Origin: a virus
Length of the DNA stretch: 22,758 nt
Strand: one strand, 5' to 3'
IMG/VR virus record: IMGVR_UViG_3300025096_000145
Coordinates: 1-22,758 of that record
The notes beneath the pieces are model-generated. The model was not told the origin of the DNA. It saw only the letters and a program-made list of their open reading frames with translations, and searched no databases. This document shows, one piece after another, positions 8,192-17,571 of the stretch (within the stretch, counting starts at the first letter, position 1; each line of letters opens with the position of its first letter). The position numbers were made by a program, and so were the translations under genes.

Positions 8192-9361
8192 TTAAGTGAT
8201 TAGTTCCATGTTAACATCTAAGAAATCATAGATTACACTTAAGAATCCATCTTTCTCTTTAATAACAGCTTCTGGGAATATCTTGATGACTTCCTGTGCT
8301 ATGACTCCACGGTAACGTGAATTAGGTGCAGACTTATAACTCCATTCATAAATGTTTAAGCCAGATAATGCTTTACCAACTTTAACTATATTCTCTTTTA
8401 GGCGTATATCACTGGCTCCAGAAGTTTGGTTAGCAAAATTTCCGCTCTGATATGTTGAAGTATGTTGACTACCTGTATTACCTGTACTACCTATGTTCCA
8501 ATTTGATTGATAATTAGCAAAGGCAGTTATACTATTACCTAGTCCAGATATAGCATTAGCCCATCCAGCCAGAGAAGACGCCTGAGCGCCTTTAATAGGT
8601 TTAGGTCCAAAATCAAACGCCTCAAGTTCTCTAGGCTCTTGGTACTCTGTAAGTGGTGTTGCTAATGGTATTTCAGGTGTTGGTAGTGTTCCAGGATGTA
8701 TCATTTTATTAGCTAAAGCTGCTAAATTAGCACCATACTGATCTCTAGCTATATCTCTTATAGTAGCTGCTGTATTCCTTTCAGCGCTAATTAATGACTC
8801 TGCTAATTTAGCTTGATTCATTCCTAATGATGCCATTACTGCTTGAGCAGCTTTAGCACCAGATCTACCAGAACCTCTTACAATAGCATCACCTTCAGCC
8901 ATAAGAGATTCAAGAACCATGTCTTGATTTTGGAATGCTACACTTTGAGTTATTTCTTTTAATTTTCTATATTCAGCTTCTTTTGCTGCAGTAGCAGCCA
9001 TCTTATTATGTGATAACTGTGCTGTGAATAAAGCATTAGATTTAGTGTACTGTTTATTCAAAGATGTCTGTTGATAATTTCTTATCTTTAATGCCGCACC
9101 ATAACTTTTAATACTATTAGTATCTTTAAAATTCTTTAAAGTTATATCATTCTTTCTTGCTATGTTTATACCTTCTAGAATAAAATCTCTATCGGTTTCA
9201 AGTTTCTCCTTCCCATACTGCCAGTTTTGATTATCATATCTAAACTGATCTCTTATAGCTTTGTTCTGCGCTGCTGCTGCCTTACTGGAAGCTCTAGCAC
9301 CCAAAACCATACCAAGACCACCAAGTACTATACCTGCTGCTCCTAAAGCCTTCTCAGACAT
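8192..9361 (-). CDS. gp14-like internal virion protein with C-terminal S74-type chaperone domain
   Basis: The 389-residue product occupies the T7 gp14 slot after tail tube B. The N-terminus is a Gly/Ala-rich hydrophobic segment (about residues 5-22), as expected for an ejected protein that inserts in the outer membrane, followed by a long Ala/Lys/Gln-rich helical region to about residue 220. Residues 317-389 differ: they start SDIRLKENI and contain RGVIAQEVIKIFPEAV. This is the signature of the S74 peptidase / intramolecular chaperone domain, which normally ends tailspikes and fibres and cuts itself off using a Ser/Lys pair in the SDxRxK motif. Ser317 and Lys322 are both present. A strong ribosome site (AGGAGG) lies 9 nt before the ATG. 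The chaperone domain is a confident motif call; the gp14 role comes from position and N-terminal character. Confidence 0.82.
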   Translation of the reverse strand: MSEKALGAAGIVLGGLGMVLGARASSKAAAAQNKAIRDQFRYDNQNWQYGKEKLETDRDFILEGINIARKNDITLKNFKDTNSIKSYGAALKIRNYQQTSLNKQYTKSNALFTAQLSHNKMAATAAKEAEYRKLKEITQSVAFQNQDMVLESLMAEGDAIVRGSGRSGAKAAQAVMASLGMNQAKLAESLISAERNTAATIRDIARDQYGANLAALANKMIHPGTLPTPEIPLATPLTEYQEPRELEAFDFGPKPIKGAQASSLAGWANAISGLGNSITAFANYQSNWNIGSTGNTGSQHTSTYQSGNFANQTSGASDIRLKENIVKVGKALSGLNIYEWSYKSAPNSRYRGVIAQEVIKIFPEAVIKEKDGFLSVIYDFLDVNMELIT

Positions 9362-13651: not shown

Positions 13652-14662
13652 TCAAGCAGTTTGGATTTCAATTGCAGCAGCAGGGTTTAGAGTACCAGCT
13701 CCCATTGCCAAACGTCCAACGATCAAGTCGCCTTGATACATTGTCTTAATATCGGCTCCGGTTGTTTGTACTTGAGGACCAATTGCTTCTACAATTCCAG
13801 CAGCATCCTTCTGATAGATAAGACCTGCATGTTGTGAGAAGTCACCGTCATAAGCATTGTTCTCACCAGACTGTGAATTAACAGTACCAGCTTTGAAAGG
13901 TAAGTTGTTAGAACGCTTGATGTCAATACCTGCAATAGATACAAGTCCTTCACCAGAGTTCAAGTTACCTTGGTTGTTACCGTAATCACGGTTCAAGATG
14001 TTAGAATCAACCTGAGATACGAGAGCATAGTACTGACGTGGAGAAAGTACAGCAGTCCTACCTTGCTTAGGAAGGTTCTTTTCATCAAGAATTGAAGCTG
14101 CTTCAAAGAAAGCATCAACTAGCTTCTGTGCATCATGCTCATTGTTAGCTCCAATTTTGATAATTGAACCACCTGGTTCTGGACCTGGTGATGCAGTGAT
14201 TGGATGAGCTTCACGAGCTGCTTTTGCGATGGTACGGAATACCTTCTTATCGTAAGCTTCGGCCAAAGCATGACCGATCTTCTTAGAGATCTCACTTCTC
14301 AGGGAGTAGTGAGCAAGTGTTTCATCAAGATCATATACGAAAGCTGAGCTTATGAGAAGATCATCACATAGGATAGTCTTCTCTGCTACTGGAGGATCAC
14401 CCGATCCGAGAATGGGTTCACCTGGAGTATGATAAGCAGCTTGCATACGGCCTGTGAAGATGAACTGTAAACTCTTACCGTTCTTTAGTGTACGGTTTTG
14501 TACAGTTCCCTTAGCTATCGTTGCTGACTCATAAGCTTTGAAAAGCTCACCAGAGAACAGCTTTAGATAGGTTTTATATTTAACGTCGTAATCGACAGAG
14601 CCAGCAGTATTAGAAGCAGCCTTATTAAGGGTACCTACTACTGACTGAGTTAGTGTAGCCAT
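13652..14662 (-). CDS. Major capsid protein (T7 gp10A equivalent)
   Basis: A 336-residue HK97-fold-type capsid subunit; T7 gp10A is 345. The N-terminal arm (MATLTQSVVGTLNKAASNT) is followed by family-typical elements: YLKLFSGELFKAYE, the E-loop region NRTLKNGKSLQFIFTGRMQA, then ILCDDLLISSAFVYDLDE, and a C-terminal region with AVLSPRQYYALV. It builds the icosahedral shell around the scaffold. The gene has a 159-bp structured leader, the longest gene-free gap in the window apart from small-ORF regions, and ends in a short transcription unit closed by the terminator at 13244-13266. No Shine-Dalgarno precedes the ATG; the leader ends TATACAATTACTCTCGCATA. The assignment agrees by sequence pattern, length and gene order. 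Confidence 0.95.
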   Translation of the reverse strand: MATLTQSVVGTLNKAASNTAGSVDYDVKYKTYLKLFSGELFKAYESATIAKGTVQNRTLKNGKSLQFIFTGRMQAAYHTPGEPILGSGDPPVAEKTILCDDLLISSAFVYDLDETLAHYSLRSEISKKIGHALAEAYDKKVFRTIAKAAREAHPITASPGPEPGGSIIKIGANNEHDAQKLVDAFFEAASILDEKNLPKQGRTAVLSPRQYYALVSQVDSNILNRDYGNNQGNLNSGEGLVSIAGIDIKRSNNLPFKAGTVNSQSGENNAYDGDFSQHAGLIYQKDAAGIVEAIGPQVQTTGADIKTMYQGDLIVGRLAMGAGTLNPAAAIEIQTA

Positions 14663-14821: not shown

Positions 14822-15316
14822 TTAGAACTTAAGGTACTCTAAGTAGGTACCGAACTTGATAACAGTAGCTGTTGCTGAGCTTGTTACCTGTGCAGCTTGT
14901 AGGTCTACGTCACCTGCTGTATCACCAGCGGTTATAGTACCTTCAATGAATGCATAGTAAGCACCATCAGCTGCTACGACTTGAACTTCAGGAGAACCTG
15001 CAGTTGTTACATCGAATGTTACAGCTTCTGTTACAGCACCAGAGATAGGTGCTTCAGATACCATGTTCCTAGCTCTGTAAGATACAGTATTAGTTGGAGT
15101 GATGATCTTATACTTAAGGTCACCATCTGCATCGTATGCTGAATCTAGATAGCAACGGAATATAGCACGTTCATACTTACCTAATCTAAACTTAAGAATT
15201 GATTGGTAGTCTGTGGAGCTTGCTATGCTGACATCGTTAGGTACGATGAGTTTTGTATTCCATTGGTTCTGAGCAGCTACTACTGTACCTGCTACTGTAT
15301 TGGTATTAATGGCCAT
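14822..15316 (-). CDS. Beta-rich 164-residue protein, possible capsid decoration protein
   Basis: A 164-residue product rich in Thr, Val, Ala and Ser with alternating beta-type segments (TVAGTVVAAQNQWNTKLIV; GAYYAFIEGTITAGDTAGDV; TATVIKFGTYLEYLKF) and no Cys except one near residue 55. No signal peptide or transmembrane segment. It is the last gene before the capsid leader, a place where phages often keep head decoration or knob proteins; I infer such a role without recognising a named family. The ATG has an A/T-rich leader (TATACACATTTATT) lacking a Shine-Dalgarno, preceded by a strong hairpin at 15339-15368. A different structural role, such as a minor tail protein, cannot be excluded. Confidence 0.72.
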   Translation of the reverse strand: MAINTNTVAGTVVAAQNQWNTKLIVPNDVSIASSTDYQSILKFRLGKYERAIFRCYLDSAYDADGDLKYKIITPTNTVSYRARNMVSEAPISGAVTEAVTFDVTTAGSPEVQVVAADGAYYAFIEGTITAGDTAGDVDLQAAQVTSSATATVIKFGTYLEYLKF

Positions 15317-15338: not shown

Positions 15339-15368
15339 ACCCTATTGTACGGTTCCGCCGCACAGGGT
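15339..15368 (-). promoter_or_regulatory. Hairpin in the leader of the 164-residue protein gene
   Basis: On the minus strand ACCCT-GTGCGG pairs with CCGTAC-AAT-AGGGT: eleven pairs including one G-U, a 5-nt loop (CGGAA) and a 3-nt bulge. It begins at the stop codon of the 44-codon gene and ends 22 nt before the next start. There is no U-tract, so an mRNA processing or stabilising structure (T7-type late mRNAs are cut by RNase III at such sites) is more likely than a terminator. Confidence 0.6.
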
Positions 15369-15502
15369 TAGTAGTTTTCTGTGATTTCGCACGTTGGACA
15401 TTCTCTACAATGTTTATGTTCGATCATGTGTAGAGTCTCCACGAACACAAAGAACCCAAACATTATGAGTGCTAAGGCCCATGGAGAATCTATGTACTTC
15501 AT
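15368..15502 (-). CDS. 44-residue membrane microprotein with a cysteine cluster
   Basis: An ORF of 44 codons: ATG at 15502 overlapping the TGA of the beta-barrel gene by one nucleotide (TGATG), TAA at 15368. The product starts MKYIDSPW, continues as a single hydrophobic helix (about residues 8-23, ALALIMFGFFVFVE) and ends in a soluble tail with HKHCRECPTC. The three cysteines spaced C-x-x-C-x-x-C, with two nearby histidines, could bind a metal or form disulfides. The coupled overlap with the upstream gene suggests joint expression with the secreted protein. Holin, lysis accessory or exclusion protein are all possible; I recognise no family. Confidence 0.72.
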   Translation of the reverse strand: MKYIDSPWALALIMFGFFVFVETLHMIEHKHCRECPTCEITENY

Positions 15503-15876
15503 CAGAAGTTATATTTAACCCCGACTTTGGTACCCCAACTTGAGTCATCATCAGTATCTTCATCTGCAGTTAGCAGTGAGACTTCACCATAAACTCCGAG
15601 GTTATTAGTAGCTTGGAAATTTCCACCTACTTTACCAGATAGTCGCCAGTCAGAATCTATACCTTGTTCAGCTACAATGGCTGGGCCTCCTTGAATGTAG
15701 AAGGAAGAACCATTCTCAGCAGCTGTTTCATAACCTACGTGAACGTCGGTTACAGAACCTGTATATTCCGAGCCCACACGAGCCCCGTTGGATTCTACGT
15801 TGGCATAGATACCGGCTGATGCAGGTGTCGCCAGTGCTGTGGTGGATGCCAGAGCGGCAAGTGCAATAAGTTTCAT
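15502..15876 (-). CDS. Secreted small outer-membrane beta-barrel-like protein
   Basis: A 124-residue protein with a clear Sec signal peptide: MK, hydrophobic core, and a signal peptidase site ATPASA|G after residue 21. The mature ~103 residues are alternating polar/hydrophobic strands (IYANVES, VHVGYETA, SFYIQGGPAIV, WRLSGKVGGNF, LGVYGEVSLLTA), and the last strand ends KVGVKYNF. A terminal Phe with alternating aromatics is the typical assembly signal of outer-membrane barrels. An acidic loop (DEDTDDDS) lies before the last strand. It should therefore sit in the cell's outer membrane or periplasm rather than in the virion. Superinfection exclusion, as for small barrels of the lambda Lom type, or envelope modification are possible roles (inference). 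The start has an A/T-rich leader with no Shine-Dalgarno, 9 nt after the 16-residue ORF. Confidence 0.85.
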   Translation of the reverse strand: MKLIALAALASTTALATPASAGIYANVESNGARVGSEYTGSVTDVHVGYETAAENGSSFYIQGGPAIVAEQGIDSDWRLSGKVGGNFQATNNLGVYGEVSLLTADEDTDDDSSWGTKVGVKYNF

Positions 15877-15885
15877 TGTTAAAGT

Positions 15886-15936
15886 TTAAATAGTTTTGGT
15901 ATAAGGGATACCGCGATACTTTAGTTGGACTTTCAT
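15886..15936 (-). CDS. 16-residue micro-ORF with a YRGIPY motif
   Basis: ATG at 15936 and TAA at 15886 encode MKVQLKYRGIPYTKTI. The ribosome site is the best in its neighbourhood (AAGGAG, 6 nt before the ATG) and overlaps the stop of an upstream open frame (TAAGGAG), a layout typical of translational coupling. The L-x-Y-R-G-x-x-Y pattern resembles the start of short cyanobacterial and cyanophage proteins of the DUF4278 type; I infer that from the pattern only. It may be a real micropeptide or a leader peptide that sets expression of the downstream secreted barrel protein, which has no ribosome site of its own. Confidence 0.5.
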   Translation of the reverse strand: MKVQLKYRGIPYTKTI

Positions 15937-15942
15937 AGTCTT

Positions 15943-15948
15943 CTCCTT
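15943..15948 (-). promoter_or_regulatory. Strong Shine-Dalgarno for the 16-residue micro-ORF
   Basis: AAGGAG on the minus strand, 6 nt ahead of ATG 15936, overlapping the TAA (15947-15949) of the preceding open frame. It is the main reason to treat the micro-ORF as translated, since neighbouring genes mostly lack such a site. Confidence 0.7.
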
Positions 15949-16066
15949 AGTAACCAACCCCCGTTCCATGATTGGTTTTCATGCGTTCCGTTAGGAATGA
16001 ACGGTCGTGGATCCCGTTGGCTTCTACTGCTTCGACAAGCGAGCCGCCATGTTTATTATGATGGTA
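15947..16066 (-). other. Open frame of 39 codons without a normal start; possible frameshift tail or gene remnant
   Basis: From just after a TAG (16067-16069) to TAA (15947) the frame reads as plausible protein, including GGSLVEAVEANGIHDRSFL and MKTNHGTGVGY, but its only ATG (15982) leaves 11 codons. It lies in the +1 frame relative to the 66-codon ORF and overlaps that ORF's last 11 nt. It could be the downstream half of a frameshifted product, a remnant of a gene that lost its start, or an 11-codon leader coupled to the 16-residue ORF. The sequence is noticeably more GC-rich than the flanking genes. Confidence 0.4.
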
Positions 16067-16256
16067 CTACACCAGAGCCACAAGAACTTCCATCAGTAGT
16101 ATTACCAACCATTACGTTACAACGTGAAGCTTGGTTGGCCATAGTGTCATTATCATTATAAGGGATGAACCATCTGTCACCCGTTTTGTTAATCATATAT
16201 TCTATTTGAAAAGTATCAGCACGTGATGCTGCTTTTGGATTGTAGATGATAGACAT
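16056..16256 (-). CDS. 66-residue hypothetical protein
   Basis: ORF from ATG 16256, two nucleotides after the stop of the 59-codon gene, to TAA 16056. The product is polar with aromatic residues (YMINKTGDRWFIPYNDNDTM) and two cysteines in the C-terminal half. No signal peptide, membrane segment or recognisable domain. The tight spacing and ordinary composition favour a real gene, but no good Shine-Dalgarno is present (leader AAAGAATTAATT). The reading frame may continue by +1 frameshift into the open frame at 15947-16066. Confidence 0.5.
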   Translation of the reverse strand: MSIIYNPKAASRADTFQIEYMINKTGDRWFIPYNDNDTMANQASRCNVMVGNTTDGSSCGSGVVPS

Positions 16257-16438: not shown

Positions 16439-16804
16439 TTATCTACCTCTACGAGTTCTAGCTTGTGCTGCAGCTATTGAAAGTATTCTATTAAGATCCC
16501 GCCTACTTGGTCTGGAACCCGTATTTAACCTTTGGGGACCAGGTGCTCCTAGTCCAAGCAAGGTAGCCCTTCTAGCTCTCCTACGAGGGTGTCTACCTAT
16601 AGGAGGTATTTGACCTTTCCTAGGAGGTTGAACAGGAAGTTCAATTGGAGGTAGTTCAGGTTCTCCCCTCCTACCTCTACGACTTGAGTTTTGTTCTTTT
16701 TCCCTTTCCCTTTTTGCCTTAGTCTTTCTCCTTCTCTTCTCTCTCGAGGTTAATGACCTACTCGATGCTAGTGCCTCTGATGCTGCCAGTGCTCCATATG
16801 CCAT
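16439..16804 (-). CDS. Arginine-rich 121-residue protein, possible DNA-binding virion protein
   Basis: About 27 of 121 residues are arginine and 6 lysine. After an alanine-rich start (MAYGALAASEALASSRSL) comes a basic helix (SREKRRRKTKAKREREKEQN), then a Pro-rich linker (about residues 50-70: LPPIELPVQPPRKGQIPP), a second basic cluster (RHPRRRARRATLLGLG), and a helical end with DLNRILSIAAAQARTRRGR. This looks like a disordered DNA- or RNA-binding protein, perhaps packaged with the genome; no family recognised. It lies 11 nt after the scaffold stop with a good ribosome site (AAGGAG, 7 nt spacing), so it is very likely translated and co-expressed with head genes. Confidence 0.75.
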   Translation of the reverse strand: MAYGALAASEALASSRSLTSREKRRRKTKAKREREKEQNSSRRGRRGEPELPPIELPVQPPRKGQIPPIGRHPRRRARRATLLGLGAPGPQRLNTGSRPSRRDLNRILSIAAAQARTRRGR

Positions 16805-16815
16805 AATGATACTCC

Positions 16816-17571
16816 TTAATATTGTAAGTTTGGTGAACGTTCTAATTTGTCATAAACATCCTGACGATAAGCAGGATCTTTTTCATAACGTGGATCTTGC
16901 ATAGCTTCTACTACTTCAGCTTGACTACGATATGCATCAGCTTTATTTGGTGCTGCTGTTCCAGTAAGCATTTCTCCTTCCACTCCTGTAGCATCCATGT
17001 ACCTATAGTTTAAAGCTTGTATAGCAAAGAAGCAAGATAAAGGATCGCCTCTTTGCATAACTGCATCAAACATATCCATTTCACCTTGCCTGAGTGATTG
17101 TCCAGCCCATTCTAACATACCATTATAAGCTTCTTCTCCTCCTACTGACCCCTGTAGGCTATGTATACTGTCTTCAGATAGCTCTGCGGCTCCACCATTT
17201 TGATTATTATTACGATAATCAAGATATGATTTAGCTAATTCTCTAGGATCAGTTTCAAATAACTCTTTTACTGTTTCTTCAGATACATTTCTAGAACCAG
17301 CTTCATGCCATAAACGGTCTAGTATATCGACCGGTTCATCGGTTTCATCCTCTTCTGTTACCTCTTCTTCTACATCTTCAGGTTTATTATCACCTAATTT
17401 CTTTTGTAGTTCTATGTAACCTTTTTCTAAGTCTTCAGCATCTTTAAATTTACCAGCAAGTAATTCGTTCTGCTGTTCTTCTAAAGATTCTCCTACTTTT
17501 AAAGCTTCTTGTTCTTCTTCAGTGAACTCAGCTGCTTCTGGATCAGCAGGATTATATGTTAGTGTTGCCAT
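16816..17571 (-). CDS. Capsid assembly scaffold protein (T7 gp9 equivalent)
   Basis: A 251-residue acidic helical protein located after the portal, as gp9 in T7 (307 residues). The N-terminal third is strongly acidic (AEFTEEEQEALKVGESLEEQ; later an Asp/Glu run near residues 65-80) and includes the family-typical segment LAGKFKDAEDLEKGYIELQK. The protein would fill the procapsid transiently, guide capsid subunits and then leave. The ATG lies within the last 20 nt of the small nested gene; there is no clear Shine-Dalgarno, so translation may be coupled to that gene. Confidence 0.9.
   Translation of the reverse strand: MATLTYNPADPEAAEFTEEEQEALKVGESLEEQQNELLAGKFKDAEDLEKGYIELQKKLGDNKPEDVEEEVTEEDETDEPVDILDRLWHEAGSRNVSEETVKELFETDPRELAKSYLDYRNNNQNGGAAELSEDSIHSLQGSVGGEEAYNGMLEWAGQSLRQGEMDMFDAVMQRGDPLSCFFAIQALNYRYMDATGVEGEMLTGTAAPNKADAYRSQAEVVEAMQDPRYEKDPAYRQDVYDKLERSPNLQY

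Follow-up and report, generated by a model that had tools for sequence, protein, structure and literature searches.

The gene studied here belongs to a cyanophage family that is catalogued as PF24653 in Pfam, under the name "Cyanophage outer membrane protein like beta barrel" domain, and also as PHROG 417 (phrog_417, function unknown) and T4-GC 241. GenBank labels its members gp222, DUF680 or 'outer membrane autotransporter barrel', and papers call the family PhCOG173. In P-SSM2 two members in tandem, PSSM2_246 and PSSM2_247 (each in T4-GC 241), immediately precede pstS (PSSM2_248). S-SCSM1 has the same order of a tandem pair and then pstS. We take PSSM2_247 to be the 'g247' gene that is up-regulated in P-starved hosts.

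The published data concern DUF680 proteins, each of which may belong to subfamily A or B of this family. The S-TIM4 protein is non-structural and without particle association. Its gene acquired 13 mutations, many of them disabling, that summed to ~100% in each population and arose only where Synechococcus WH8102 was the host and the medium was nutrient-replete, and the authors cite a suggested DUF680 role in phosphate limitation (PMC6224464). The virion proteome of S-SZBM1 includes a DUF680 protein, detected with 2 peptides (PMC9146016). In metagenomes of the P-poor Sargasso Sea (BATS), DUF680 cluster 173 is enriched together with the PstS cluster 174 (PMC3686209).

The glutamine-II riboswitch class was first found as the 'downstream-peptide' motif (PMC2864571). 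Its ligand is glutamine, it has been described from marine picocyanobacteria alone, and it is associated with DUF4278 proteins (PMC6316151). Two papers briefly note that T4-like cyanophages have glutamine riboswitches (PMC9964418, PMC9602691). A limited literature search found no papers on T7-like copies of the riboswitch or on a link to the outer-membrane protein (OMP) family.

Here, we analysed a 22,758-nt stretch of DNA (the window), an IMG/VR virus record with T7-like portal, scaffold, capsid and tail-tube genes by Pfam and PHROG. Its OMP gene stands behind a glutamine-II riboswitch. This linkage and the prediction of six strands appear to be the new parts.

Results

The gene and its family

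15502 to 15876, minus strand: Phage_OMP gene, 124 aa, with a signal peptide and a predicted 103-residue six-stranded barrel-like domain
15814 to 15876, minus strand: signal peptide codons, with cleavage between ASA and G; A21 and G22 invariant in 78 relatives
15505 to 15528, minus strand: codons of the terminal strand KVGVKYNF, which fits the outer-membrane β-signal

The OMP ORF runs on the minus strand from an ATG at 15876 to its end at 15502, with a C-terminus of ...GTKVGVKYNF*, and the plus strand has many stops over the same interval. The protein matches PF24653 over its full length (residues 5–124) with an E-value of 8.7e-38 and 129.7 bits against a cut-off of 27, and it also falls in phrog_417 and T4-GC 241. 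By sequence it is a further member of the family already catalogued. Signal peptide, strands, terminal F and phage groups are all alike between it and its relatives, but the window copy is less than 60% identical to any phage record, follows a glutamine-II riboswitch and has neither psbA nor hli with it.

Other databases add little. DUF680 and the Ail/Lom family are absent among the Pfam matches at E≤1, so the DUF680 label seems inherited. OMP_b-brl (PF13505) reaches 18.2 bits, below its cut-off of 28.7. NCBIfam gives no match above cut-off for the window protein, whereas paralogue B scores 19.8 bits against the generic autotransporter-barrel model (cut-off 16). PADLOC gives no match, and no sequence homologue with a solved structure was found (best E 0.48). 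The protein has no cysteine and hence no lipobox cysteine.

Paralogue B is ~35% identical to the window protein, which belongs to subfamily A. In a tree that is rough and built on few columns, the two subfamilies split with full support, and subfamily A requires at least two changes of phage type.

Export and outer-membrane signals

The N-terminus, MKLIALAALASTTALATPASA followed by GIYANV, reads as a Sec-type signal peptide (AxA before G) of 21 aa that leaves 103 residues. Across the 78 aligned relatives A21, G22 and the last F are invariant and A19 is conserved in at least 90%. A crude rule for signal peptides is satisfied by 90% of the 185 unique subfamily-A proteins and by 100% of the 65 in subfamily B, against 5.4% of 1738 background ORFs. 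The β-signal, defined as a polar-x-G-x-x-hydrophobic-x-aromatic end, fits 99.5% of subfamily A and 100% of subfamily B, against 0.06% of background ORFs and 0.2% of shuffled sequences. Both signals lie far beyond chance, since hardly any background ORF shows them and the relatives nearly all do.

Hydropathy alternates along the six predicted strands with a score of 2.70, compared with 1.35 in within-strand shuffles (P 0.002), and P falls below 5e-5 for the family average. The general features of outer-membrane barrels (a Sec signal peptide, amphipathic strands and a C-terminal β-signal) were thus all found in the window protein. The sequence-only reading had called the gene a phage-encoded outer-membrane protein with an ASA-G cleavage site, 103 mature residues, alternating strands and a terminal KVGVKYNF strand, and each of these features is borne out by the statistics above. 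Together with the PF24653 match and the predicted fold, they support an exported, outer-membrane β-barrel-like protein.

Predicted fold

AlphaFold with 78 sequences predicts six strands for the window protein (22–34, 37–52, 58–70, 76–88, 93–102 and 113–122; pLDDT 86, pTM 0.70) and also six for a subfamily-B member (pLDDT 83). The best match among solved structures is OmpX, with a probability of 1.00 but an E-value of only 0.018 and a TM score of 0.56. Other outer-membrane barrels make up much of the list, and in a viral structure library the family members come first. The window protein shares its signal peptide, amphipathic strands and C-terminal aromatic residue with the eight-stranded OmpX, Ail and Lom barrels, but it has six strands, short loops and no sequence membership among them.

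To our knowledge, all natural outer-membrane barrels have eight strands or more, the smallest having eight. A monomer would call for at least eight, and both predicted models have six. Hence, the protein would be either a smaller barrel or one of several copies that combine. An ordinary monomeric pore would need more than six strands, so the protein may serve as a plug, a binding surface or an oligomer subunit. Given that both ends are periplasmic in the model, the connection at 103–112, the longest and most acidic, would face outside.

Distribution and genomic site

The sequence-only reading had asked for a survey of cyanophage genomes, and tblastn with the window protein found homologues in 469 phage records, whose names point to marine or cyanobacterial phages and none of which reaches 60% identity. 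They include both T7-like and T4-like cyanophages. Among the named phages checked, the gene is present in S-RIP1, S-RIP2, S-SBP1, P-SSP10, 9515-10a and NATL1A-7 and absent from P-SSP7, P-GSP1, Syn5, P60, S-CBP42, S-CBP2, S-CBP3, S-PM2 and P-SS2.

None of 14 control genomes has a homologue. A scan of 84,980 species genomes with one short pattern gave seven cellular matches, all on cyanophage-like contigs. No genuine cellular homologue was found in either set, and we rejected a host origin, as all seven matches of that single pattern are mis-binned cyanophage contigs. As a side observation, metagenome-assembled genomes labelled Euryarchaeota, Lewinella, Gammaproteobacteria and Rhodobacteraceae hold such contigs.

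13652 to 14662, minus strand: major capsid protein (PF21703, E 7.6e-80), given as context
15368 to 15502, minus strand: 44-aa ORF MKYIDSPWALALIMFGFFVFVETLHMIEHKHCRECPTCEITENY, one apparent transmembrane segment and then CxxC
16816 to 17571, minus strand: scaffolding/head assembly protein (PF05396, phrog_1052), the other border of the accessory island

In T7-like phages the scaffold and capsid genes flank an island in which the OMP gene has hli and/or psbA as neighbours, as in S-RIP1, S-RIP2, S-SBP1, P-SSP10, 9515-10a, P-SSP2 and MedDCM-OCT-S04-C24. The podoviral gene is an optional passenger of this scaffold-hli-psbA-capsid island. In T4-like phages its context is psbA, psbD, talC, cp12, hli and pstS; P-HM2 and Syn9 have a single copy, which in P-HM2 is near talC, cp12 and nrdC. 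The gene is accessory and travels with photosynthesis and nutrient genes.

The window gene had been placed next to the capsid gene in a late structural operon. The first description is loose, since ~840 nt and two ORFs intervene. The operon is unsupported, because the gene is accessory and sits at the site of the hli/psbA island of related phages. The ATG of the 44-aa ORF overlaps the OMP stop by one base; this ORF has no family match above cut-off and is a possible partner of the OMP.

Several other ORFs on the minus strand were noted. A 164-aa protein between the OMP and capsid genes (14822–15316) has weak PHROG matches only, and its relatives diverge strongly after the first residues, which suggests a fast-changing head decoration or fibre. 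A 121-aa strongly basic, Arg-rich protein follows the scaffold gene (16439–16804) with no Pfam or PHROG match. A 66-aa ORF (16056–16256, MSIIYNPKAASRADTFQ...) also stands ahead of the riboswitch in a number of close relatives (five loci). The C-terminus encoded at 8192–9361 (DIRLKENIVKVGKALSGLNIYEWSYK...) resembles, by eye, an S74-type intramolecular chaperone.

A glutamine-II riboswitch and a micro-ORF

15953 to 16006, minus strand: glutamine-II riboswitch aptamer (Rfam RF01704), 48.8 bits, gathering score 33, E 3.1e-9
15943 to 15948, minus strand: Shine-Dalgarno AAGGAG of the micro-ORF, directly 3′ of the aptamer, assigned by sequence
15886 to 15936, minus strand: micro-ORF MKVQLKYRGIPYTKTI, 16 aa, with a YRG motif as in DUF4278-type 'downstream peptides'

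The aptamer ends 76 nt before the window OMP gene, and 9 nt separate the micro-ORF stop from the OMP start codon. In 48 fetched loci the aptamer core is 78–138 nt upstream of OMP, in two distance classes that match the micro-ORF length, and in 20 others it is more than 1 kb downstream instead. It adjoins OMP in P-SSP10, 9515-10a and NATL1A-7, follows psbA in S-RIP1 and S-RIP2, and is present in P-SSP7 and P-GSP1, where OMP is absent.

In the phage copies of the aptamer, 98.7% of cells are paired, 9 of 15 pairs carry compensatory double changes, as expected of RF01704, and the pseudoknot is invariant. Energy folding of the leader is mildly better than in shuffles (z −1.3) and uninformative, since the key helix is a pseudoknot. 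A YRG micro-ORF follows 68 of 70 phage aptamers, against 0.5% at random positions. The longer homologous peptides score 16.9 bits against DUF4278 (PF14105, cut-off 25.3), for which the 16-aa window peptide is too short. Compared with the picocyanobacterial riboswitches, the window has the same aptamer above the gathering score and a similar short YRG peptide after it, but the copy is in a phage and the next gene encodes an outer-membrane protein.

Two ideas about this arrangement were weakened. Translational coupling had been deduced from the missing Shine-Dalgarno of OMP, but T7-like OMP genes are without one in nearly every context, riboswitch present or not, in a comparison with noisy T7/T4 labels (the psbD probe also matches psbA, and the 'both' class is T7-like). 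A switch dedicated to OMP agrees poorly with P-SSP7 and P-GSP1. The aptamer without OMP in these two phages, or far downstream of it as in the S-RIP1 type, implies that the constant target is the micro-ORF and that the aptamer is a cyanopodovirus feature in its own right. Translation of the window OMP probably rises at high glutamine; the direction follows published work on the aptamer class and we infer the coupling to OMP.

Paralogue B, pstS and the Pho box

In T4-like phages pstS is within 150 nt of paralogue B in 65 of the 66 loci with enough DNA, and subfamily A is just upstream of B in 52 of 77 loci, all of them retrieved with B as the query. A Pho box in tandem form (at most one mismatch) precedes B in 23 of 51 clusters, compared with 0.28 in shuffles. 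P-SSM2 and S-SCSM1 have it upstream of B and none above their A genes. Above the A-type genes, in a mostly T7-like set, Pho boxes occur at 27 of 80 against 20 expected, little beyond chance. In T4-like cyanophages, paralogue B and pstS stay together almost without exception, and a Pho box often precedes B.

The window gene is of the same family as the P-SSM2 pair, in which PSSM2_247 is the subfamily-B member with the Pho box upstream. It differs as a single subfamily-A copy with no pstS in view and another regulatory signal.

Discussion

We firmly regard the window gene as a phage-specific accessory gene with all the sequence signals of an outer-membrane protein, and its product probably works in the infected cell, controlled by nutrient status. 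As to the role, an evenly balanced proposal is that it encodes a nutrient-status-gated small outer-membrane protein that tunes the infected cell's envelope to capture nutrients.

While the phage infects marine Synechococcus or Prochlorococcus, the protein would be made and exported through Sec, lose its signal peptide after ASA and be placed in the outer membrane by the host Omp85/BamA machine, with the C-terminal β-signal as the tag for insertion. Six transmembrane-type strands with the acidic longest loop outside may then act as a plug, a binding surface or part of an oligomer. It would be part of the nutrient and photosynthesis accessory island rather than of virion assembly. In the window the riboswitch and YRG micro-ORF ahead of it would probably allow more translation at high glutamine, while in T4-like phages the paralogue stands behind a Pho box directly before pstS. 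The adjusted envelope may plausibly help phosphate towards PstS when nitrogen is sufficient and phosphate is short. High glutamine with low phosphate would be the state in which the phage gains most from phosphate capture, and both inputs fit it.

The riboswitch upstream and the sister genes beside a phosphate-uptake gene make a role in nutrient-limited infections more likely than one in lysis. Against the nutrient role, it is paralogue B, and not the A-type genes of T7-like phages, that has the Pho box and pstS nearby, the modelled six-stranded barrel has no obvious lumen, P-SSP7 and P-GSP1 have the riboswitch without OMP, and S-SZBM1 virions contain a DUF680 protein.

The main rival is superinfection exclusion or debris protection, in which the phage receptor, on the infected cell or on lysis debris, would be occupied or hidden by the barrel, by analogy with T5 Llp, Cor or lambda-type Lom proteins. 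It accords with the outer-membrane location signals, a fold nearest OmpX (of the Ail/Lom/OmpX type) and an accessory gene exchanged between phage families. However, no Ail/Lom, OMP_b-brl or PADLOC match rises above cut-off, the lipobox cysteine of Llp and Cor is absent, the surface loops are short and the regulatory context concerns nutrients, not receptors, so we consider it unlikely. The sequence-only reading had favored late expression with a block of re-adsorption, protection of the infected cell or aid to lysis. We found no positive evidence for the first two roles, and late expression is unsupported for a gene in an accessory island behind a glutamine riboswitch, with a paralogue linked to a Pho box and pstS.

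Virion and lysis roles are less likely. A soluble periplasmic or virion-surface β-barrel that merely resembles an outer-membrane protein would explain why six strands fall short of the eight in the smallest known membrane barrels, and would suit the S-SZBM1 proteome. The near-universal β-signal, the lipid-type hydropathy alternation, the fold matches dominated by outer-membrane barrels, the conserved signal peptide and the S-TIM4 homologue outside the particle all speak against it, and we find it quite improbable.

Still less probable is glutamine-dependent envelope tuning only, with the T7-like OMP as a nitrogen-response factor and the pstS link of paralogue B as a separate use. The riboswitch beside A-type genes in the window and Prochlorococcus podoviruses and the lack of a Pho box at T7-like A-type genes agree with it, but the riboswitch is also found without OMP. 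Finally, an outer-membrane destabilizer helping lysis, possibly with the overlapping 44-aa ORF and its hydrophobic segment, is highly improbable for an accessory gene that many lytic relatives lack, that in named relatives is followed by psbA or another annotated ORF, and whose DUF680 counterpart was lost in nutrient-replete passage, with disabling alleles reaching ~100% in lytic populations (PMC6224464).

Returning to the nutrient-gated protein, its most specific form is rather unlikely: a six-stranded protein, smaller than known natural barrels or an oligomer subunit, that refits the envelope under a glutamine riboswitch in T7-like phages and under phosphate and PhoB in T4-like phages. If real, the six-stranded fold would mean that outer-membrane barrels can be smaller than the minimum known so far, or would reveal a small barrel built as an oligomer.

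The family occurs in hundreds of sequenced marine cyanophages of two unrelated kinds. The links to the riboswitch and to the Pho box and pstS turn a 'hypothetical protein' into a testable claim, that phages alter the outer membrane of the most abundant photosynthetic cells in line with N and P status.
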